A stretch of DNA of 64,000 nucleotides, taken from positions 2,852,001 to 2,916,000 of the forward strand of contig NZ_LT629749.1 in the NCBI RefSeq assembly GCF_900105065.1. Direction: 5' to 3'. Source of the stretch: Friedmanniella luteola (GTDB taxonomy: Bacteria; Actinomycetota; Actinomycetes; Propionibacteriales; Propionibacteriaceae). Below are positions 3-8,605 of the stretch, piece after piece (positions within the stretch are counted from its first letter, which is position 1; each line of letters opens with the position of its first letter). Both the position numbers and the translations under genes were made by a program. The notes beneath the pieces are model-generated. The model was given only the letters and a program-made list of their open reading frames with translations, was not told where the DNA came from and did no database searches.

Positions 3-788
3 TCATGCTGGTCGCCGAAGGCCGGCAGTGGACACCGGGCCGCGCCGCCGGGCTTCCGCCGTCAGGCGCAGCAGGTTGCCGCCGAGCACGAGCGCGGCAG
101 CGTCCGGAGCGAGGTGGAGCGCCTCGATCTTGGCGATCTCGACGGCCGGGTGCAGGAAGGGGCCGTCGCTGCCGAACAGCACCTTTGCCGGTCCGGCCCG
201 CCGCACGGCGTCCTCGAGCAGGTCGAAGTAGCGCACCCCCGAGGTATCGGTGAAGAGATTCGGGTGCCGGCAGAGCTGATCGACGAAGGCGACCTGCGCC
301 TTCCACTCGTCCGCGAACGAGGACAGGTGCGGGACGATCCAGGCGACGTCGGGGTAGGCGCGCGCCACCATCTCGACGGACGCGGTGTCCCCCCGCGGGT
401 CGTAGAGGACCGGGAAGTGCAGGCGCCGCGCGACCTCGGCGACCTCGCGGGTGATCAGCCCGTCGTGGGCGTGCACCTTGAGGCCGCAGAAGCCGCCCGA
501 CCCGACCGCTGCCGCGACATCGCGGGCCACCCGACCGCGCTGGGTGGCCGGGTTGACGAAGACGTAGCCGGACCACCGGCGCGGCTCGCGGGCCAGGACC
601 GCGGCCAGGGCCCGGTTGGCGGCCGGGTAGTCCGACGTCAGCGGCGCCATCAGCACCGCCTGGTCGATGCCCGCCTCCCTCGCCCGCCTGCGGTAGACGG
701 CGAGGGACCCTTCCGTGTCCCACGGTCCACTCAGTCCGTCACCGAGCCCGATGTGGACGTGGGAGTCGATGACCGGGAAGGGGGTCAT
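3..788 (-). CDS. Amidohydrolase-family metal-dependent hydrolase
   Basis: This complete 261-aa protein resembles the amidohydrolase_2 TIM-barrel hydrolases and decarboxylases. The first strand ends in DSHVHIG (residues 8-14), with the HxH metal ligands at 10 and 12. Further candidate ligands are H106 in CGLKVH and H154 in VPHLSS. The catalytic-type Asp is D208 in LFGSDGPF. The C-terminus has the usual GGNLLRL helix. It has no signal peptide, so it is probably cytosolic. Its ATG overlaps the stop of the PLP-enzyme gene (ATGA at 785-788). That makes it the last gene of the operon driven from the sigma-54-type promoter near 6285. The substrate is unknown; the operon position suggests it acts with the PLP enzyme on a small carboxylate or amide. 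The family call is secure but the reaction is not. Confidence 0.85.
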   Translation of the reverse strand: MTPFPVIDSHVHIGLGDGLSGPWDTEGSLAVYRRRAREAGIDQAVLMAPLTSDYPAANRALAAVLAREPRRWSGYVFVNPATQRGRVARDVAAAVGSGGFCGLKVHAHDGLITREVAEVARRLHFPVLYDPRGDTASVEMVARAYPDVAWIVPHLSSFADEWKAQVAFVDQLCRHPNLFTDTSGVRYFDLLEDAVRRAGPAKVLFGSDGPFLHPAVEIAKIEALHLAPDAAALVLGGNLLRLTAEARRRGPVSTAGLRRPA

Positions 789-1837
789 GCCGCACCCCGG
801 TGCAGCTGGCGGCCGAGGGCCTGCAGCAGCAGGTTGACAGCCACGTCGGAGTGGTCGGCCCGCACCAGCACGCCGAGGGCCGCGGTACCAGCGCAGCCCG
901 ACCGGATCACGAGCGTGCTGACCCCGTCGACCAGCATCCGGCGCCGGAGGTCGTCGGCGCGCGCGAGCGGCATCGGCAGCTGGACGGCGGGGAAGGGCAG
1001 GCCGGCCGCTGCCAGACCCTGTTCGCCGGCGAAGTCCCGGACCCTGCCGATCAGCCGGGCGAGCCGGCGCCGTCGCTGTGGGAGCGTCGGGTCGGCCAGG
1101 GCCTCGGTCAGCGCGGCCACGTCAGCGCGGGTCGGCGGGCTCGCGTGGAGGCGGCTCGGCCCCCGCCGGACCATCGCCACCGCGGTGGCGGGACCGGTGA
1201 CGACGGCCAACGGAGCACCGAACGCCTTGGCCGTCGACGCCACCGAGACCAGCTGGTCGGGGGGCAGCCCCGACCACGCCGGCGTGCCCTGCCCGCCGGA
1301 GCCGAGGGGCCGCCAGGGCTCCGGATCCGCCCCGAGGACCCCGGCGGCCAGTGAGTCGTCGACGACCAGGGTGGCCCCCGCCTCGGCCGCCACCGCGGCC
1401 AGGGACCGGAGCGGGGCCGGCCGCGAACAGCCGCCGCACCAGCCGTCGGTCAGGACCACCGCGGCCCCGCGCCGGCGCCGTCCGTGCAGCAGCCGACGGA
1501 CGTGGTCGGCGTCGTGGTGGCCGAAGGTGGTCATGGCGGCTCCTCCCTGAGCGGCCACCGCGGCGGCCCAGAAGCTGATGGGGTAGCTGTGCTCGTCGAC
1601 GACGACCAGGGCGCCGGCTGGGGCCGCCGTGGTGAGCACGTCGACCAGGGCGTGCAGGCTCGTCCGCGCCACCACCGCCGCCGCCGCCCCCTGCGCCGAG
1701 GCGACGGCGGCGGCAGCAGCCGAGGCACCCGCCGGCTCCTGGAGCGCCGCGGGCTTGCCCTCGGTCAGCCTCCCCGCGCCGGCCGCGGACGGATGGCGCA
1801 GGCCGAGGAACAGGGCCGACGTGAAGTCGGCGTTCAC
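785..1837 (-). CDS. PLP-dependent aminotransferase / alpha-oxoamine-synthase-like enzyme
   Basis: This protein of about 350 aa has the fold-type I PLP pattern. VVDDSLAAGVLG (residues 158-169) matches the cofactor-ring Asp region of KBL/BioF-like enzymes, and STAKAFGAP carries the probable Schiff-base lysine K204. I chose the GTG at 1837 because it overlaps the stop of the upstream gene as GTGA and opens in front of VNADFTSALF. The longer reading frame upstream is only the shadow of that gene. It overlaps the amidohydrolase start downstream, so translation is probably coupled. The protein is short for the family (usually 380-400 aa), and its N-terminal part is unusually rich in alanine. It could be an aminotransferase, a C-acyltransferase or a beta-eliminating enzyme; the sequence alone does not decide. 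Confidence 0.78.
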   Translation of the reverse strand: MNADFTSALFLGLRHPSAAGAGRLTEGKPAALQEPAGASAAAAAVASAQGAAAAVVARTSLHALVDVLTTAAPAGALVVVDEHSYPISFWAAAVAAQGGAAMTTFGHHDADHVRRLLHGRRRRGAAVVLTDGWCGGCSRPAPLRSLAAVAAEAGATLVVDDSLAAGVLGADPEPWRPLGSGGQGTPAWSGLPPDQLVSVASTAKAFGAPLAVVTGPATAVAMVRRGPSRLHASPPTRADVAALTEALADPTLPQRRRRLARLIGRVRDFAGEQGLAAAGLPFPAVQLPMPLARADDLRRRMLVDGVSTLVIRSGCAGTAALGVLVRADHSDVAVNLLLQALGRQLHRGAA

Positions 1838-3336
1838 GCCCGCTGACGCTGCGAACGCAGCCGCCGCAGGATGAGAGTGGACGGCATCGTGGTGTCGAGG
1901 TCCTTGGACAGGTCGACACCGGTGACGGCGCGATACGCGGCGACGTACTTCTGGATGGCCGGCCGGAACGCGTTGGCCCAGACACGTGCGTCCTGGGCAC
2001 CGACGTTGGTCCCAGCCCAGTCCCCCAGCCGGATCGTCAGCACCAACCGTTCGCCCAGGGTGGCGAGATCGTGGTGGTGCATGATGCTCGTGTCGGTCCA
2101 CCCCTGCAGTCCCTTCATGGTGTCGACCCGGTCCATCCAGTCCTCCGGGTAGGGGGTCATCGGCCGGCCGCCGAGGAACTCGCGCATCGGCGGCTGCGCG
2201 AGCAGCGTCTGCATGGTCAAGAAGTCGGCCCGCGCGGTCACGGCCATCTCGCCGTACTGGTTGTGCGAGCCCTGCGAGACGATCAGGTGGCACTCGCGCA
2301 GCGACCGGTACAGCGGGAACGGGTCGGCGTTGACCGTCAGGTCGTCGCTCTCCTTGAAGTAGATGTGGGCCTGGTGCAGGATCTGGTGGAAGGACTCCAA
2401 GAACCCGGTCCGGCGTTCGACCAGCATCCGGGTCGGCGGCACCGCCCGGCCGATCAGCGTCAACCCGTACTCGTATTCGTACTCAGCCGCGCGCCGCCGC
2501 AGGGTGAGGCGCTGGTGCTCGTCCTCGGCCCAGCCCCAGAGCAGATTGCGCAACGGGAGCAGCGGGGTGATGTCGAAGCGCGCGAGTGGGTCGCGGTCGG
2601 AGCCGAGCCGCCGGTTCTGGAACCGGGCCAGGATGACGTTGAGGGTCTGCACGAGCATCCCTTCCTCCAGCCAGTAGTTCCAGATCAGCTCGACGCACGG
2701 CATGAAGTGCTTGTCGTAGAACTTCCCGGGCAGCAGTGGCTCCGCCTCCATGCGTGCCCGGAGGTAGCCGTCGGGGATGAGCTCGTCGAGGGAGTCGCAG
2801 TGCTTGTCCTGGACGTACTGGAGCGCCAGCCGCTTGAGCTCTTGATAGTTGTTCTCCCCGAAGGCGCCGAAGAACCGACCCTTCTTCTTGAAGTTGAGCC
2901 CCTGCTCCTTGAGGAACGTCGTGAAGCCCGGGAAGGTGGCGAACGGGCGCTCGGCCTCTGGGTGGCCGAGGGCGGCTTCGTTGACGAGCTGGATCCGCTC
3001 CCCCACGTCCTGGATCACCGAGAAGGCGTGCTCGGCCGACGTCTCCAGTGCACCGCCGGCGCCCGCGTGACCGCCAGCCGGCTGCCAGGTCCGGAGCACC
3101 AGGTGGTAGCTGCCCGGCGCTAGCCCCCCGACCGGTATCGCGTAGGTGTGCGGGTCGTCCTTGCCGCCGCGCTTCACGAGCTGCTCCTTGACGGTCTTGG
3201 TCTGATCGCCCTCCGACGTGAGGATCGCCCAGACGAAGTTGCCCCCGTACTCCTCCTTGAGGTTGACCTCGAAGCTGACGGATTCGCCCTGGACGAAGCT
3301 GCGCCGGGTCGGCTTGATGCGGTACTTGTTGTCCAT
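1834..3336 (-). CDS. Unknown 500-aa protein of the sigma-54-linked operon
   Basis: I do not recognise this family. The 500-aa protein has no signal peptide or membrane segment. Residues 1 to about 110 look like a beta-sandwich (FVQGESVSFEVNL, then GSYHLVLRTW), as in Ig-like or carbohydrate-binding folds. The rest is helical and rich in aromatic and charged residues (for example KFYDKHFMPCVELIWNYW and AAEYEYEYGL). It also has a histidine run, TSIMHHHDLATLGERL. The start is set by a good ribosome site (AGGAGAAACG then ATG). It lies 12 nt after the metallopeptidase-like gene and overlaps the PLP-enzyme gene by GTGA. Conserved-looking blocks and intact coding character argue for a working protein. 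A structural, scaffold or enzymatic role for the two GRWVRRG proteins would be a guess from position only. Confidence 0.8.
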   Translation of the reverse strand: MDNKYRIKPTRRSFVQGESVSFEVNLKEEYGGNFVWAILTSEGDQTKTVKEQLVKRGGKDDPHTYAIPVGGLAPGSYHLVLRTWQPAGGHAGAGGALETSAEHAFSVIQDVGERIQLVNEAALGHPEAERPFATFPGFTTFLKEQGLNFKKKGRFFGAFGENNYQELKRLALQYVQDKHCDSLDELIPDGYLRARMEAEPLLPGKFYDKHFMPCVELIWNYWLEEGMLVQTLNVILARFQNRRLGSDRDPLARFDITPLLPLRNLLWGWAEDEHQRLTLRRRAAEYEYEYGLTLIGRAVPPTRMLVERRTGFLESFHQILHQAHIYFKESDDLTVNADPFPLYRSLRECHLIVSQGSHNQYGEMAVTARADFLTMQTLLAQPPMREFLGGRPMTPYPEDWMDRVDTMKGLQGWTDTSIMHHHDLATLGERLVLTIRLGDWAGTNVGAQDARVWANAFRPAIQKYVAAYRAVTGVDLSKDLDTTMPSTLILRRLRSQRQRA

Positions 3337-3348
3337 CGTTTCTCCTAG

Positions 3349-4665
3349 TTACGAGGCCCGGGACTGGAGCCGCCGGGTGGTGCTGATGGTCTGGTGGGTG
3401 GAGAGGCTGCTGCGCAGAGCCCAGGCCCGCAGGACTGCGGACAGGAGCTCGCTCTCGGCCTCGGGCGTGATGAGCTGGGCGGCCCTCGCCTGGCCGACGA
3501 CGGCGAAGACGAGGGTCGGGGGCTGCCGGGCCAGGACCCCCAGGTCGCTGCGCCACTGGTGGAAGAGTTTGAGCAGCCGTTGGGGCCGGCGCTGCCCGAG
3601 CGGGAACGAGTTGCGGAGGGATCGGCCCTGCAACGCCGGGGAGCGGTGCTCGGCCAGCAGCAGGGCGAACGCGGGGATCTCGGCCTCGAGCAAGGCGAAC
3701 TCGTCTTGCCGCTCCGGTGGGAGGTCCGCCACGGGGTAGAGCTCCTTCCACGTCCGCGCCATGTCCGCCCACTGCGGGTGGGGGTACAGCTCCGCGCCGA
3801 TGGCGCAGCTGAGCAGCACCCGCAGGTACGGCGTCGGGTGGGGATCGTCGTCGGAGGGGCGGAACACGAAGAACCGGGGCAGGCTGACCACCGCCAGGAG
3901 CCCCAGAGTCGAGGAGATGCCCAGCGCGGCCACCGACCAGAGGTCGGCGATCACCTCGGACACCCACCGCTCCCAGCTGCGCCAGGCCGGGACGCGCTCC
4001 GGCGTGAGCGGCCGCTGCCGCGAGACGTCCTCGCGCAGTGACTCGACGAGGCCCAGCAGCGCGGCGCCCTGGTGGCCGACCTCGTGCACGAGAGACGAGG
4101 CGATCCCGTGCCCGACCATGCGCTCGCGCGGGACACGGATGATCGCCACCGGGGAGGCGTCGCCGCCCGGCAGCCGGGTCCGGGCTCTCCGGATGGCAGC
4201 GCCGGGACCCCGAGCCAGGTACGTCACGACCTCGGGGCGGTCCTGGATCCACGGGGTGATCGCCAGTGCGTCCGCCGCCAGCACGTCCAGCCCGGACAGC
4301 CAGACCCCCGTCCGGCTCTCGCTGCGCTGGGTGACGACCTCGGTGAAGGTGTCGAACTGGCTGAGGACGGCGTTGAACCGCATCCGGATCAGAACGAAGC
4401 GGTGCTGCTGCTCGTCCGGCCGGGCTGACCGGCCGGGACCGTCCAACCACGCGAGGTAGGCATGGATCTGACGACGGAGGACCGTGCGGCCGGCGTGCAG
4501 GAAGCGCTCGATCTCGAGGCTGGCCGGGACCGGCAAGGCTGCGGCCATCACCATCGTCTCGTGCAGCGCGAGCGGCCGGATCTGGTCGAGCCGCACCAGC
4601 AGGCCGCGCGCCTCCAGCTCCAGGAGGGCCGCGCTGAGCCGCCGTTCCACCGGAGTCACGCTCAC
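3349..4665 (-). CDS. HEVGH zinc-metallopeptidase-like protein
   Basis: A 438-aa protein starting at the GTG that overlaps the upstream stop (GTGA at 4662-4665). SLVHEVGHQGAALLG (residues 192-204) contains a gluzincin-type HExxH with H194, E195 and H198. About 40 residues later SEVIADLW supplies an ExxxD motif (E237, D241), which is where gluzincins carry their third zinc ligand. No signal peptide is evident. Hydrophobic stretches follow the motif (about 246-264, LGISSTLGLLAVVSL), so membrane contact is possible. As third gene of the operon, directly after two glycine-zipper-like proteins, it may process or insert them; that is inference. The motif is clear but I do not recognise the overall family, so it could also be an inactive or non-peptidase relative. 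Confidence 0.75.
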   Translation of the reverse strand: MSVTPVERRLSAALLELEARGLLVRLDQIRPLALHETMVMAAALPVPASLEIERFLHAGRTVLRRQIHAYLAWLDGPGRSARPDEQQHRFVLIRMRFNAVLSQFDTFTEVVTQRSESRTGVWLSGLDVLAADALAITPWIQDRPEVVTYLARGPGAAIRRARTRLPGGDASPVAIIRVPRERMVGHGIASSLVHEVGHQGAALLGLVESLREDVSRQRPLTPERVPAWRSWERWVSEVIADLWSVAALGISSTLGLLAVVSLPRFFVFRPSDDDPHPTPYLRVLLSCAIGAELYPHPQWADMARTWKELYPVADLPPERQDEFALLEAEIPAFALLLAEHRSPALQGRSLRNSFPLGQRRPQRLLKLFHQWRSDLGVLARQPPTLVFAVVGQARAAQLITPEAESELLSAVLRAWALRSSLSTHQTISTTRRLQSRAS

Positions 4666-5528
4666 GCTTCGTACAGCGTGATGGTCTTGCCCCGGCGCAC
4701 CCAGCGGCCGTTGGCACCAGACCCCTGAGACAACTCGTGCGACTCGAACGTCTCGTCCTCCCCGTCCCCGTCGTCGGCGGCGCCGTACCGGTCGCCGTCG
4801 TCCCCGCCGGGCTCGGCCCCGCCCGCGCCGCAGGTGCAGACCCGGCGCCGCCGGCCCGCCGCCCCGCCCCAGTCCGGGGTCGACCAGCCCGGGCCCCGTC
4901 GACGGCGCCACGGTGAGCTGCCCCACGTCGAGCGGCTGCTCGCGCCGAGCAGCGAGGGGGCGTACCGCCGGGCCGAGGACACGGCCGCCGACCGCACGAC
5001 GACGCGCGGTGGGACGCCGCGGGGAGCGCGGGCGGAGTTGCGAACCGTGCCCGCCGCCCAGCGGACGTAGCGCCGGGCGGCCTCGAACTCGGCCTCCGAC
5101 TCGTTCATCGTCTCCCTCTCCTCCGCCTCCAGCAGGCTGGAAGCCATCGACCCGAGCTTCCCGCCGATGGCGGTCCCGATGCCGGGCGCTACGAACGAGC
5201 CGAGGGCCGAGCCGACCACGGGTAGGGCGGTCTTCGCGACGCCGCGGAGCACGCCGCCCAGCGCCTTCCCGATCGGGGACCGGATCAGCGAGCTGGCGCC
5301 TTTGGCGACGCTGCGGACGAGCTTGCCGAGGAACTGCTCGAGCTCCTCCTCGCTGGTGATCTCCAACAGCTCCTGCGCGAGCTCCAGCTCGGTCGACTCG
5401 TTCAGCTCGGCGATCTCGTGGAACTCGTGGGACTCGTAGGACTCGCCCGCGCTCTCCCACTCGTGGGACTCCAGCTCGTGGCCCGGGCCCTCGAAGGTCT
5501 CGTTCTCAAGCGACTCGAAAATGCTCAT
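4662..5528 (-). CDS. Acidic glycine-zipper-like protein with C-terminal GRWVRRG motif (paralogue 2)
   Basis: This 288-aa protein has four visible parts. Residues 1-60 are acidic with repeated aromatic-or-His plus E-S triplets (FES, WES, YES). Residues 60-70 contain EELEQFLGKL. Residues 84-125 are a small-residue, glycine-zipper-like hydrophobic stretch (SPIGKALGGVL, then VGSALGSFVAPGIGTAIGG) that could insert into a membrane. The tail is Arg/Gly/Trp-rich with a CTC pair (231-233), a second acidic TFESHEL, and ends GRWVRRGKTITLYEA. It shares this plan with the upstream gene product, so the two are paralogues. There is no classical signal peptide. It lies 45 nt after paralogue 1 and overlaps the metallopeptidase-like gene. 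Function is unknown; a pore, a secreted pair or an assembly subunit are all possible. Confidence 0.8.
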   Translation of the reverse strand: MSIFESLENETFEGPGHELESHEWESAGESYESHEFHEIAELNESTELELAQELLEITSEEELEQFLGKLVRSVAKGASSLIRSPIGKALGGVLRGVAKTALPVVGSALGSFVAPGIGTAIGGKLGSMASSLLEAEERETMNESEAEFEAARRYVRWAAGTVRNSARAPRGVPPRVVVRSAAVSSARRYAPSLLGASSRSTWGSSPWRRRRGPGWSTPDWGGAAGRRRRVCTCGAGGAEPGGDDGDRYGAADDGDGEDETFESHELSQGSGANGRWVRRGKTITLYEA

Positions 5529-5573: not shown

Positions 5574-6236
5574 TCAGAGGTCCATCAGGACGATGCGGGT
5601 GCCGCGGCGCACCCACCGTCCGCTGCGCGGCCCCTCGGGCGACCCTGAGGAAGCTCGTCCCGAGCGCTGGTCGAGCAACGGGACCAGGGCCGGCAGCTGC
5701 CGCTGGGCCGCCGAACGCAGAGCGGCGTTGGCGGCCTGGCGCGGGGGCGCAGCCGGCCCCGCGGAGACGGCGTGCTGAGTGGCGTCACGGGTCAGCCGGA
5801 TGACAGCCCGCGCCACCTCCAGCTCCCGGTCCTCGGCCGAGAGGCCCTCCAGCTCGAACTTCGTCCCGAGCCACTGCCCGGCACGCTGGCCGAACTGGCC
5901 GCCCGCTCCCGGGACCACGGCATTACCGATGACCTGGCCCAGTTGCGGCAGCGCCTGACGCGCGACGTCCTTCAGAACGCCGCCGAGAGCCCGCCCGGTG
6001 GCCGAGCCGGCGAACCCCCGCGCGGCCGAGGCCGCCGAGCTGATCAGCCCGCCGAGGAACTGCTCCAGCTCCTGCTCCGAGGCGACCTCCAGCAGCTCCG
6101 ACGCCAGCTCGACCTCCTGGGCCTCGGACTCGGAGTGGGCCTCGTACGCCTCGAACGACTCGCCCAGCACCTCACCGGACTCGCCGAACGTTCCTTCCTG
6201 CTCCATCTCGAACATGGCGCGGTCGATGTCATGCAT
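5574..6236 (-). CDS. Acidic glycine-zipper-like protein with C-terminal GRWVRRG motif (paralogue 1)
   Basis: First gene of the operon, 220 aa. The ATG at 6236 is preceded by AGAGGA and lies about 30 nt below the expected start of the sigma-54-type promoter. Residues 1-45 are acidic (GESFEAYEAHSESEAQEVE). ELEQFLGGL is at 56-64. A glycine-zipper-like segment (about 79-125) includes GRALGGVLKDVARQALP and VVPGAGGQFGQRAG. EDRELEVARAVIRLTR (135-150) matches a similar helix in paralogue 2. The protein ends SGRWVRRGTRIVLMDL. The long upstream extension in the same frame has no coding character. No signal peptide is visible. Both paralogues keep the same domain order but differ in length of the basic tail, which suggests duplication followed by specialisation. 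No known function is recognised. Confidence 0.82.
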   Translation of the reverse strand: MHDIDRAMFEMEQEGTFGESGEVLGESFEAYEAHSESEAQEVELASELLEVASEQELEQFLGGLISSAASAARGFAGSATGRALGGVLKDVARQALPQLGQVIGNAVVPGAGGQFGQRAGQWLGTKFELEGLSAEDRELEVARAVIRLTRDATQHAVSAGPAAPPRQAANAALRSAAQRQLPALVPLLDQRSGRASSGSPEGPRSGRWVRRGTRIVLMDL

Positions 6237-6277
6237 AGGGGTTCCTCTCATCCGATGGACCTCGACACCCCTCCCCA

Positions 6278-6293
6278 TGCAATTTCCGTGCCA
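6278..6293 (-). promoter_or_regulatory. Sigma-54-type -24/-12 promoter
   Basis: On the minus strand the sequence reads TGGCACGGAAATTGCA. This matches TGGCACG-N4-TTGCW at every conserved position, with GG and GC in the required register. Transcription would start near 6267 and give a leader of about 30 nt with an AGAGGA ribosome site before the ATG at 6236. It lies between the sigma-54-like gene (ending 6340) and the first gene of the operon. No activator-binding repeats were recognised upstream, where they would fall inside the sigma-54-like gene. Confidence 0.85.
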
Positions 6294-6339
6294 GGCTCGG
6301 GACGCGGACCCTCTGCGGTTGGAGGCGAAGGCACCTTCG

Positions 6340-7629
6340 TCAGCCGGGCACCGGGGGGGACGGCGGGCGAAGATCGCTTCGCCGCCCGGTGCTCCCCTCG
6401 AGGCCGGCCCGGTACTTGGCCACCGTCCGCCGGGCGACGACGCGGCCCTGAGCCCGCAGGACGCGGCTGAGCTCGGCATCGCTGGCGGCCGGGTGCGCGG
6501 CCAGAGCGGCCTGCACCGAGGCGATCACCGCCCGGTTGCCACCGAAGCAGCCGACCAGCGACACGACCCTGCCGTCGGGGCACCGGGCCCACTTGCCATG
6601 GACCGCGCGCCCGACGGTCGAGGGGTGGACGTCGAGCGTGCGGGCCAGTGCGCTCCGACTGAGCGGGCGGTGATCGGTGTCCCCGTGCCGTAGGTAACCC
6701 CGCTGGACGTCGGCCAGGACGGTGGCGATGCGCCGCAGCATCGACGCGCGCGCGGCCAGGGCGGTGAGCAGGGCGGTCGCGTCGTGACGGTGGACCGCGA
6801 GCCAGCGCCGGGCCTCCCGGTCGCGCTGTAACCACAGCCCCTGGTCGACCTCGAGGCCGAACCACGCGGCGTCGGTCACCACCTCGACGTCGAGGGCGCC
6901 TGCTGGCCGGGACGGGTTGTCCCGGAAGACCAGGTCGGGCGTCGCCGGCCTCTGGAGAGGGCCCTCGAGCGTCGGGTACGGCCGGATCCGGGACACCAGA
7001 AACGCCACCGCCCGCCCCACCTCGTCGGTCGGGGTGGCGAGAGCGGCGGCGATGGCGTCCAAGTCGTGGTCGGCGACGGCGCCGAGGTGGTCCGGCACGA
7101 TCCGCAGGAGCAACGGTGGGCACGCCCCGACCGCTGCCAGCCGCTCGACCTGGAGGCGGACGCAGTCGAGCGGCGATCGGGCCGCGATCCCGGGCGGGCC
7201 CACGCGACGGAGGGCCTCCAGGACCGCATCGAGGTGGGACGCCGCGACGGCCCCCAGCGGCGCGGGAAGCCGCGGCAGCAGCCCACGGTCGTCGAGCGAC
7301 CCGACCACCAGTTCGACGAGGGGACGGGCCGCCGCCGGCAGCTCGAGCCGGGCGGCGGCGGCGAGCTCCTCCCGCCAGTCGACGGCTGCCGCCAGCTGAC
7401 CGGGCAGCGGCGAGATCCGGCAGTCCTGGCAGTAGGCCCGCCGGCAGTGCCGTCCACAGCCCAGGCACGGCCCGCCCGGCGCCCGCACCAGGAGCGGGTT
7501 GTCCTCGATCGCCCGGGCGATCACCTCCGCCATCGAGTCAGCCGGCAGGGGCAGCAACGACATGAACTGGACCAACGCCGCGCGGGGCAGCAGGGCCGTC
7601 CGGTGCTCAAGCCTCAGCCCCTGGGCCAC
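6340..7629 (-). CDS. rpoN: RNA polymerase sigma-54 (RpoN)-like factor with a cysteine cluster
   Basis: A 429-aa protein with the sigma-54 domain order. Region I (about 4-48) is recognisable from GLRLEHRTALLPRAALVQ to IEDNPLL. The core-binding domain (about 100-250) has SLDDRGLLP and RRVGPPGIAARSPLDCVRLQ. The DNA-binding domain has RPLSRSALARTLDVHPSTVG (321-340) followed by RAVHGKWA. The RpoN box is ARRTVAKYR (399-407), nine of the ten canonical residues. Unusually, region II is replaced by a compact cluster of five cysteines and a histidine (C55, C58, H61, C62, C67, C70) that could bind metal. Start: GTG at 7629, the only start that keeps region I. An exact sigma-54 promoter follows the gene. 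No AAA+ enhancer-binding activator is in the window. Sigma-54 is generally regarded as missing from Actinobacteria, so horizontal origin is likely. Confidence 0.88.
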   Translation of the reverse strand: MAQGLRLEHRTALLPRAALVQFMSLLPLPADSMAEVIARAIEDNPLLVRAPGGPCLGCGRHCRRAYCQDCRISPLPGQLAAAVDWREELAAAARLELPAAARPLVELVVGSLDDRGLLPRLPAPLGAVAASHLDAVLEALRRVGPPGIAARSPLDCVRLQVERLAAVGACPPLLLRIVPDHLGAVADHDLDAIAAALATPTDEVGRAVAFLVSRIRPYPTLEGPLQRPATPDLVFRDNPSRPAGALDVEVVTDAAWFGLEVDQGLWLQRDREARRWLAVHRHDATALLTALAARASMLRRIATVLADVQRGYLRHGDTDHRPLSRSALARTLDVHPSTVGRAVHGKWARCPDGRVVSLVGCFGGNRAVIASVQAALAAHPAASDAELSRVLRAQGRVVARRTVAKYRAGLEGSTGRRSDLRPPSPPVPG

Positions 7630-7681: not shown

Positions 7682-8605
7682 TCATCGCCGGCTGAGCGCG
7701 GTCTCCGTCTCGACCCGGGTCAGCTTCTCGGGGTTGCGGACGAAGTAGAGGTGGGAGATCCGGCCGTCCTCGACGCGGGCCGCGAGGACGCCGTCGACCT
7801 CCCCGTCGAGGCGGAGGAGCAGGGCCGGGCTGCCGTTGATCACGGCCGGGCTCGCGGTCAGGGTGCCGTCGGTCTTGCCCAGACCCCCGAAGAGCAGCCG
7901 GACCACCTTGTCGGCGCCCGCCACCGGGCGCAGCGCGGCCCGCCGGCGGCCGCCGCCGTCGGCCACCAGGACGACCTCCGGGGCCAGGACGTCGAGCAGG
8001 GCCTGGGCGTCCCCCGTCTCGACCGCGCGCTGGAAGGACGCCAGCGCCGCCCGGGTCTCGCGGGAGCTGACGACCGCCCGGGGCCGTCGCGCGACGACGT
8101 GCTGGCGCGCCCGGTGCACGATCTGCCGGACGGCGGCCGGGGTCTTGTCGAGCGTGGCCGCGATCTCGTCGTAGCCGACGTCGAAGACCTCCCGCAGCAC
8201 GAAGACCGCCCGCTCGGTGGGCGACAGGGTCTCGAGGACCACCAGGAGGGCCATCGAGACGCTCTCGGCGAGCTCGAGGTCCTCGGCGACGTCGGGCGTC
8301 GTCAGCAGCGGCTCGGGCAGCCACGACCCGACGTAGGCCTCCTTGCGGCGCTTGCTGGTCCGCAGCCGGTTGAGCGCCTGCCGCGTGGTGATCCGCACCA
8401 GGTAGGCGCGCGGGTCGCGGACCTGCTCGAGGTCGACCTGGACCCACCGCAGCCAGGTCTCCTGCAGCACGTCCTCGGCGTCGGCCGAGGAGCCGAGCAT
8501 CTCGTAGGCGACCGTGAACAGCAGGTTCCGGTGCGCGACGAAGACGTCGGTCGCCGCGCCCGCACCGCGGTCATCCACCCGTCCACCTCCAGAGCACGGC
8601 GTCAC
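7682..8605 (-). CDS. sigJ: ECF41-type RNA polymerase sigma factor (SigJ-like)
   Basis: A 307-aa sigma-70-family factor. Region 2 (about 19-85) includes AYEMLGSSADAEDVLQETWL. Region 4 (about 125-180) includes LSPTERAVFVLREVFDVGYD and AVRQIVHRAR. A SnoaL-like C-terminal extension (about 190-300) follows. The ECF41 signatures are present: WLPEPL between the sigma domains, ADGGGRRRA in the extension and NPEKL near the end. In this group the extension replaces a separate anti-sigma factor and tunes activity. The gene follows the flavoprotein gene by a single base and is probably co-transcribed with it. ECF41 factors are typically encoded beside one oxidoreductase or carboxymuconolactone-decarboxylase-like target, which fits. 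The start may be the GTG at 8605 or a GTG a few codons inside. Confidence 0.9.
   Translation of the reverse strand: MTPCSGGGRVDDRGAGAATDVFVAHRNLLFTVAYEMLGSSADAEDVLQETWLRWVQVDLEQVRDPRAYLVRITTRQALNRLRTSKRRKEAYVGSWLPEPLLTTPDVAEDLELAESVSMALLVVLETLSPTERAVFVLREVFDVGYDEIAATLDKTPAAVRQIVHRARQHVVARRPRAVVSSRETRAALASFQRAVETGDAQALLDVLAPEVVLVADGGGRRRAALRPVAGADKVVRLLFGGLGKTDGTLTASPAVINGSPALLLRLDGEVDGVLAARVEDGRISHLYFVRNPEKLTRVETETALSRR

Follow-up and report, generated by a model that had tools for sequence, protein, structure and literature searches.

The 64,000-bp stretch of the Friedmanniella luteola genome analysed here (contig NZ_LT629749.1, positions 2,852,001 to 2,916,000; hereafter the window) carries near its left end a gene for a 429 amino acid protein related to sigma-54 (RpoN). 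The 3′ end of this gene and the region behind it hold two copies of a dyad motif and a -24/-12 promoter, followed by eight genes on the same strand, which encode cargo1, cargo2, a protease-like protein, p500, a pyridoxal phosphate (PLP) enzyme, an amidohydrolase, an M20 peptidase and a 180-aa protein. As the eight genes run in one direction with tight spacing, they probably form an operon. The coordinates of all features, including those left of the window, are collected in Table 1. The genome is a single 4.72-Mb contig with completeness of 100% and contamination of 0.24%. The sequence-only reading of the window that preceded this analysis had allowed for a contig from outside the Actinobacteria; the contig is actinobacterial, since the genome shares its order with a Kribbella genome and consists of one complete, low-contamination contig, and contamination as the source of the locus was ruled out on the same ground.

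The 429-aa protein, which the sequence-only reading had called sigma-54-like, was confirmed as a full-length, divergent sigma-54. It scored above the Pfam cut-offs for Sigma54_DBD (PF04552, 3.7e-21) and Sigma54_CBD (PF04963, 1.1e-15, 58.2 bits vs a cut-off of 22.9) and contains the RpoN box ARRTVAKYR; region I stayed below threshold (see below). The NCBIfam model rpoN_sigma (TIGR02395) aligned to residues 15-412 (2.6e-39) with 135.5 bits, about half of the equivalog cut-off of 277.35, and the protein is therefore a divergent member of the family, not an equivalog by TIGR02395. The AlphaFold2 model, built from an alignment of 21 relatives (mean predicted local distance difference test score 85.9, predicted template modelling (TM) score 0.67), showed two region-I helices within residues 17-43, a 38-residue extra-long helix (271-308), a helix-turn-helix (HTH) and an RpoN domain. 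In a fold search of the model against the PDB, all 29 matches at E ≤ 0.001 were sigma-54 chains; their query TM-scores were 0.27-0.44, with a root-mean-square deviation above 14 Å, because the domains are probably arranged differently.

After region I, at the position of region II, the protein carries a cysteine ribbon (C55-x2-C58...C67-x2-C70) that is predicted to bind zinc. A C-x2-C...C-x1-2-C ribbon was present in 16 of the 21 members of the clade to which this protein belongs (14 of them strictly C-x2-C...C-x2-C) and in none of 43 canonical sequences. According to the available part of PMC7057263, region II normally fills the DNA and RNA channels of the polymerase; a ribbon in its place may therefore change inhibition, and through it the sigma factor might itself respond to zinc or to redox state.

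The promoter TGGCACG-GAAA-TTGCAT stands 46 bp past the sigma-54 stop codon, essentially where the sequence-only reading had placed it (47 bp), and the start expected from it, at about 6267, would be some 31 nt above the ATG of cargo1. The scan for TGGCACN5TTGC that the same reading had proposed, counted genome-wide as exact matches only, found the one site in the window, but yielded three sites in the genome against two for the reversed control pattern. At up to two mismatches, the window contained 23 sites vs 47 expected by chance. On these counts, the box by itself is not improbable; it is raised above chance by where it stands, by the pair of dyads above it and by the fact that relatives have kept the entire arrangement. 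Among 18 actinobacterial loci, 16 had a -24/-12 box with at most one mismatch and two had a two-mismatch variant. In genome G090 (locus L023), rpoN has an exact -24/-12 box of its own 62 bp upstream (8737), which suggests that this copy is autoregulated.

An AAA+ activator, also proposed as a check, was found just outside the window. A profile search of the genome with PF00158 returned one true bacterial enhancer-binding protein (bEBP; 446 aa, 9.4e-53), the next best match being 1.2e-7 in an 897-aa frame. The bEBP gene lies 1.7 kb left of the window and is convergent with the operon. Its product contains the Walker A motif GETGTGKE, a GAYTGA loop and an AAA+ lid domain; a tyrosine in the GAFTGA motif is seen in a small number of bEBPs, as stated in the available part of PMC7057263. 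The Fis-type HTH (PF02954) scored 0.097, below cut-off, and reached 3.8e-7 in the Modestobacter bEBP. No Pfam domain was matched in the N-terminal part, which is receiver-like by eye. Exactly one PF00158 match at E ≤ 3.0e-49 and exactly one PF04552 match at E ≤ 0.001 were each obtained in 14 of 15 named actinobacterial genomes that carry the operon; the remaining PF00158 matches in those genomes, listed to 1e-5, were no stronger than 5.0e-9 and fell in frames of at least 800 aa that are Clp-like by size. The bEBP gene immediately precedes rpoN in the Modestobacter and Geodermatophilaceae loci (L032, L033), and an Ectothiorhodospiraceae metagenome-assembled genome (MAG) has a second bEBP beside the module (L099:7269-8684), scoring 262 bits vs 626 for the module's own.

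A scan for palindromes with exact arms gave hints of a repeated motif above the promoter, and a scored scan yielded the 16-bp dyad GCGAA-N6-TTCGC. In the window it occurs at -89 (exact) and -47 (one mismatch) from the -24 element. We counted dyads in the 160 bp above the -24 element of 17 non-redundant actinobacterial promoters, with expected copies taken from the rest of the same loci and base-shuffled sequence as a second control; Geodermatophilaceae L033, whose promoter has two dyads, and the G090 rpoN box, which has none, were left out. Exact dyads numbered 13 in 10 of the 17 promoters (expected 0.0; shuffled mean 0.005), those with at most one mismatch 21 in 12 (expected 0.09; shuffled mean 0.045), and those with at most two mismatches 29 in 16 (expected 1.6; shuffled mean 1.12). 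As the consensus was drawn from this actinobacterial set, its score there is partly circular, and 47 non-actinobacterial promoters, namely those of 60 whose best box had at most one mismatch (13 were dropped), provided the fair test. There, 41 exact copies were found in 34 of 47 promoters (expected 0.04), and 45 of 47 had a dyad with at most one mismatch (0.78 copies expected). These dyads were mostly paired 41-42 bp apart, and their usual positions relative to the -24 element were -88/-46, -99/-57 or -101/-59. In the actinobacterial set, a spacing of 42-44 bp was commonest, with 20 bp in three Arthrobacter-type loci, 32 bp in Rhizocola, and a third copy 31 bp away in Kribbella. Two, three and four turns of the helix correspond closely to spacings of 20, 31-32 and 42 bp, a regularity that one would predict if all copies had to lie on one face of the DNA. 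Of all the evidence, this shared putative enhancer argues most strongly for a single circuit of bEBP, dyads and -24/-12 promoter that would have been kept from Proteobacteria to Actinobacteria.

The sequence-only reading had proposed that the factor and the promoter were acquired together as a dedicated circuit. This was borne out in that the genome has one sigma-54, one true bEBP and one dyad-plus-promoter arrangement, all at this locus, and in that the same cassette was found at 17 further actinobacterial loci. If sigma-54 instead served several unlinked promoters, the operon being merely one of them, the two other exact TGGCACN5TTGC sites would be candidates. Both are antisense inside coding frames (DJ-1/PfpI-like and LpqB-like genes, named by eye), the exact dyad occurs nowhere else in the genome, and the single true bEBP is the one described above, so that, judged on the exact sites, such a wider role is very unlikely.

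To survey the cassette, an alignment of the protease-like protein was searched against a collection of genomes from 84,980 species (contigs of at least 3 kb), and the best 80 of 139 relatives were used, 15 from Actinobacteria and 65 from other phyla (Proteobacteria, Myxococcota, Gemmatimonadota, Nitrospira, Bacteroidota, Acidobacteria, Chloroflexi, Verrucomicrobia, Planctomycetes and others). With four loci found earlier, these made a linkage set of 84, in which several non-actinobacterial loci are short. Profile searches found p500 at 83 loci, cargo1 at 79, the PLP enzyme at 73, the bEBP at 71 and the amidohydrolase at 63. The rpoN model matched at 17 of 84, all actinobacterial; the 65 loci from other phyla, several short ones included, gave no match. 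Of the 15 named actinobacterial loci, 13 have rpoN on the locus. The Agromyces contig breaks at cargo1, and its rpoN closes a different contig together with the exact box and the cargo1 that follow it; Streptomyces sp. NRRL S-118 has no rpoN. The full set was present in G725, a genome of the same class as F. luteola. Counting a duplicate locus (L025 = L038) and a duplicate genome (G776 = Pseudarthrobacter) once, we obtained 18 distinct actinobacterial cassette loci with rpoN, including those of the window, G090, G102, Agromyces and G725. Cellulomonas avistercoris has one TGA inside the extended frame.

All 28 non-actinobacterial carriers tested have rpoN in the genome, 26 at 3.1e-52 or better, and the 16 of these 26 that were placed in the sigma-54 tree all fell on the canonical side. 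The other two, both Chloroflexota, have only weaker sigma-54 matches (2.1e-35 to 1.3e-30), which fell within the clade of the cassette proteins. In one Chloroflexota genome (L185), the amidohydrolase and bEBP genes adjoin rpoN.

Phylogenetic placement, likewise suggested by the sequence-only reading, gave the cassette proteins a clade of their own: 18 actinobacterial and three Chloroflexota sequences were separated from 29 others by a branch with 99% support in the Shimodaira-Hasegawa-like approximate likelihood ratio test (SH-aLRT). The sigma-54, protease and bEBP trees agreed in their subgroups: the window with Nocardioides and Agromyces, Kribbella with Paractinoplanes, three Arthrobacter-type copies, two Cellulomonas, Modestobacter with Geodermatophilaceae, and Micromonospora with G090. 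Several of these, for example the first two, cut across orders. The proteases of Nocardioides and Agromyces are near neighbours in their tree, on end branches of 0.05 and 0.056. Shared subgroups that cross orders, together with this closeness, point to a cassette that moves as a unit.

The distribution of sigma-54 bears on a different history, in which the factor is chromosomal heritage of the phylum and not part of a mobile cassette. In the order of F. luteola, 5 of 147 genomes were above the PF04552 cut-off, four with the cassette and one (G074) without it in the 11.1 kb examined. Its class had 4 of 394, of which three are real, all with the cassette; the fourth match (G848, 23.4 bits) was discarded as a transposase-like HTH by eye. 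In the genus, 4 of 20 matched at E ≤ 0.001: apart from the window itself, these were a fragment at a contig edge and two matches scoring 21-22 bits. These counts make the distribution patchy. Elsewhere in the phylum, sigma-54 was found at E ≤ 1.3e-36 in 15 of 396 genomes of other classes, 13 of them at least 90% complete and at most 5% contaminated (L123-L137; G190, G292, G325, G346, G399, G431, G442, G443, G466, G471, G499, G506, G516, G524 and G549); matches in G465 and G492 (26.7 and 24.3 bits) were rejected as weak and in short or broken frames. The sequence-only reading had taken sigma-54 to be generally absent from Actinobacteria. At the level of the phylum this goes too far, and a phylum-wide absence looks untrue. 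The 15 genomes are what would speak for vertical descent; the 11 of them that were placed in the tree lie on the canonical side, across the 99% SH-aLRT branch from the cassette clade. Together with the class and genus counts and the subgroups that cut across orders, this makes vertical descent extremely improbable.

Two sigma-54 genes in relatives of F. luteola stood out in this survey. Genome G074, from the same family, carries a sigma-54 of another lineage on a 39.6-kb contig (C47; L026), by contamination or separate gain. In a MAG of the same genus (L189, G910:C466), an edge fragment of sigma-54 is followed by an apparent tyrosine integrase tail (by eye).

Taken together, these observations make it very likely that the locus represents a self-contained sigma-54 switch that spreads horizontally together with the genes it controls. 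In the proposed circuit, the bEBP would bind the paired dyads, oligomerise on a signal read via its N-terminal part, contact region I of the cassette sigma-54 on the host RNA polymerase, and so open the promoter of this operon alone. Where a phylum has sigma-54 of its own, the host RpoN would serve this set of genes, bEBP and dyads; a specialised RpoN would come with the cassette in Actinomycetes and in at least one locus from Chloroflexota. The sigma-54 gene would thus be cargo that frees the operon from dependence on the host's sigma factor repertoire. It is probable that a mobile operon running on host sigma-54 captured a specialised sigma-54, with a predicted zinc ribbon replacing region II, and thereby colonised Actinomycetes, which lack the factor. 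On single versus repeated capture, the trees differ: all 18 actinobacterial bEBPs lie on one side of a 91% branch, and the protease tree calls for three changes of the label 'actinobacterial with rpoN'.

Several points weigh against this reading. Sigma54_AID (PF00309) reached 0.0013 and 18.9 bits in the F. luteola protein, below the cut-off of 23.8; clade members from Modestobacter and Chloroflexales are above it. Four actinobacterial promoters have a single dyad copy, and Micromonospora, G102, MAG36 and G725 have dyads only at two mismatches. In the whole genome, the exact dyad and its reversed control pattern were each found one time, so that the single copy shows a single target and is by itself no evidence of rarity. 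The G090 cargo promoter has no dyad at up to two mismatches in the 160 bp examined, and the G090 bEBP frame (L023:16075-17241) stops before the Fis-like HTH; the joint loss fits the model, yet shows decay or rewiring. Streptomyces sp. NRRL S-118 (L095) has operon genes without sigma-54, a true bEBP or a promoter box at up to one mismatch, and thus the operon does not need the circuit in order to exist. The -24 element and the RpoN box are both altered in Modestobacter and its near relative. The trees are quick searches with many open forks, and the three changes in the protease tree arise with this rpoN-less Streptomyces inside the group and G725 apart.

Part of this evidence could be taken to mean that the locus is a decaying relic: the cassette would have arrived intact, its sigma-54 would no longer work in actinobacteria, and the parts would be drifting. 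Long branches in the sigma-54 clade, the weak region I score, what Streptomyces NRRL S-118 has lost and the missing dyad and HTH of G090 are all in line with it, and a 2025 survey takes weak actinobacterial hits in this way (PMC12316311, in its available part). In a relic, non-coding sites would drift first. The F. luteola sigma-54 differs from the 17 other actinobacterial cassette proteins by 58-70%, and despite this difference the frames are open, the -24/-12 box is kept (16 of 18 with at most one mismatch) and so are the dyads (16 of 17 with at most two). The Modestobacter change in the RpoN box (SRSAVRKYR) is matched by a change at the corresponding position of the -24 element (GCGCACG-CTTC-TTGC; L032 and L033, about 8278-8300), identical in the near relative, as though reader and site had co-varied, in what amounts to a single event shared by two closely related carriers. 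We therefore regard decay as highly unlikely to explain the locus and favour the mobile switch.

The 2025 survey reported RpoN hits in 4 of 173 Actinomycetota; in its available part, one is ascribed to a misclassified strain, the other three (Modestobacter marinus, Alloactinosynnema sp. L-07 and Citricoccus sp.) are weak and judged not bona fide, and the phylum is concluded to be effectively without functional RpoN (PMC12316311). Our results speak against this view of the class and, through the strong hits in 15 of 396 genomes from other classes, of the phylum too. The weak hits probably belong to the same family as the cassette protein, given Modestobacter excelsi in our set (L032); unlike here, the partner bEBP, upstream activator sequences (UAS) and promoter go unmentioned in the available part of that survey. 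The available part of PMC11999139 holds nothing on the question of actinobacterial sigma-54. The sequence-only reading had suggested a rare, possibly undescribed system: the cassette is not unique to this genome and weak hits to relatives are already in print, but in the open-access literature no description of the cassette was found.

Like canonical sigma-54 (RpoN/SigL; TIGR02395, PF00309+PF04963+PF04552), the cassette protein has a region I (below the Pfam cut-off here), core-binding part, extra-long helix with HTH and RpoN box in this order, a -24/-12 promoter and an AAA+ bEBP partner. It differs in its separate clade, its score below the equivalog cut-off, its cysteine ribbon, its seeming dedication to one operon and its position beside its target. 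RpoN2 of R. sphaeroides (flagella) is likewise a specialised RpoN for its own gene set, but its host has other RpoNs, whereas the cassette brings the only one (compared with the available part of PMC12316311). The bEBP resembles the NtrC/PspF type in its AAA+ domain, GAFTGA/GAYTGA loop, weakly scoring Fis-like HTH and putative dyad UAS upstream, and differs in an N-terminal part without a Pfam domain and in dyads that lie near the promoter, spaced by approximately whole helical turns.

These results offer an explanation of how Actinomycetota can own a sigma-54, namely as a factor that would travel in a plug-in circuit along with operon, activator and sites, and they make it testable whether sigma-54 can be transplanted onto a polymerase that never met one. 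They also delineate a cross-phylum operon whose conserved regulatory signature is a -24/-12 promoter with two GCGAA-N6-TTCGC dyads above it, as a rule some 42 bp from each other, and provide a candidate orthogonal sigma-54/bEBP/promoter set for high-GC hosts.

Table 1. Features of the sigma-54 cassette of F. luteola. Positions refer to the window unless preceded by L021 or C1.
Feature	Position	Strand	Remarks
Cassette-type sigma-54 (rpoN-like), 429 aa	6340..7629	-	GTG start; Pfam, NCBIfam, predicted structure
UAS1 (putative), GCGAAGCGATCTTCGC	6367..6382	-	exact dyad, within rpoN 3′ end
UAS2 (putative), ACGAAGGTGCCTTCGC	6325..6340	-	1 mismatch; 42 bp below UAS1; one-base overlap with rpoN stop codon
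Sigma-54 -24/-12 promoter, TGGCACGGAAATTGCAT	6277..6293	-	inferred transcript start ~6267
cargo1, 220 aa	5574..6236	-	ATG at 6236; ribosome-binding site GAGAGGAACC (by eye)
cargo2	4662..5528	-	paralogue of cargo1
Predicted zinc metalloprotease-like protein (HEVGHQ)	3349..4659	-	no Pfam family; query for module search
p500	1834..3336	-	predicted N-terminal beta part and helical domain
PLP enzyme, BioF / serine palmitoyltransferase (alpha-oxoamine synthase) kind	785..1837	-	start approximate
Amidohydrolase (PF04909)	3..788	-	
M20 peptidase	L021:12810-14006	-	left of window
180-aa protein	L021:12264-12806	-	left of window
bEBP	L021:10919-12259 (= genome C1:2848919-2850259)	+	left of window

Among the products of the operon, cargo1 has an MHDIDRAMFE leader, an ELEQFLG motif, a glycine-zipper-like stretch and a C-terminal GRWVRRG; its paralogue cargo2 bears a leader as well. 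For the protease-like protein and p500, no Pfam family was above cut-off; against PDB folds, p500 had no match at E ≤ 0.001, and no solved relative of the protease-like protein was found (best E 0.93). In other phyla, the operon also encodes proteins in which acidic/aromatic (FE-rich) leaders are joined to peptidoglycan-binding parts or to parts that resemble, below threshold in both cases, peptidase M15 or GIY-YIG (L062:14555-18521, L056:14537-15382, L049:14522-17668). The glycine-zipper-like proteins with leaders, the peptidases and, in other phyla, the peptidoglycan-binding relatives tentatively suggest an envelope or secreted product. A defence system was rejected as an identity, since a PADLOC search with 10 proteins gave no match at E ≤ 0.1.

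The GC content of the module (0.73) is not unusual beside that of its flanks (0.74-0.75), and thus a recent arrival is not visible in GC. No tRNA gene that could serve as an integration site was found in the window. Plasmid copies occur in 6 of 72,556 plasmid records (Rhizobium, Paraburkholderia, Ensifer, Bradyrhizobium), all below 60% identity and with uninformative annotation. Upstream of rpoN, at a distance of 52 bp, lies a gene for a SigJ-type extracytoplasmic function sigma factor with a SnoaL-like tail (7682-8605, minus strand).

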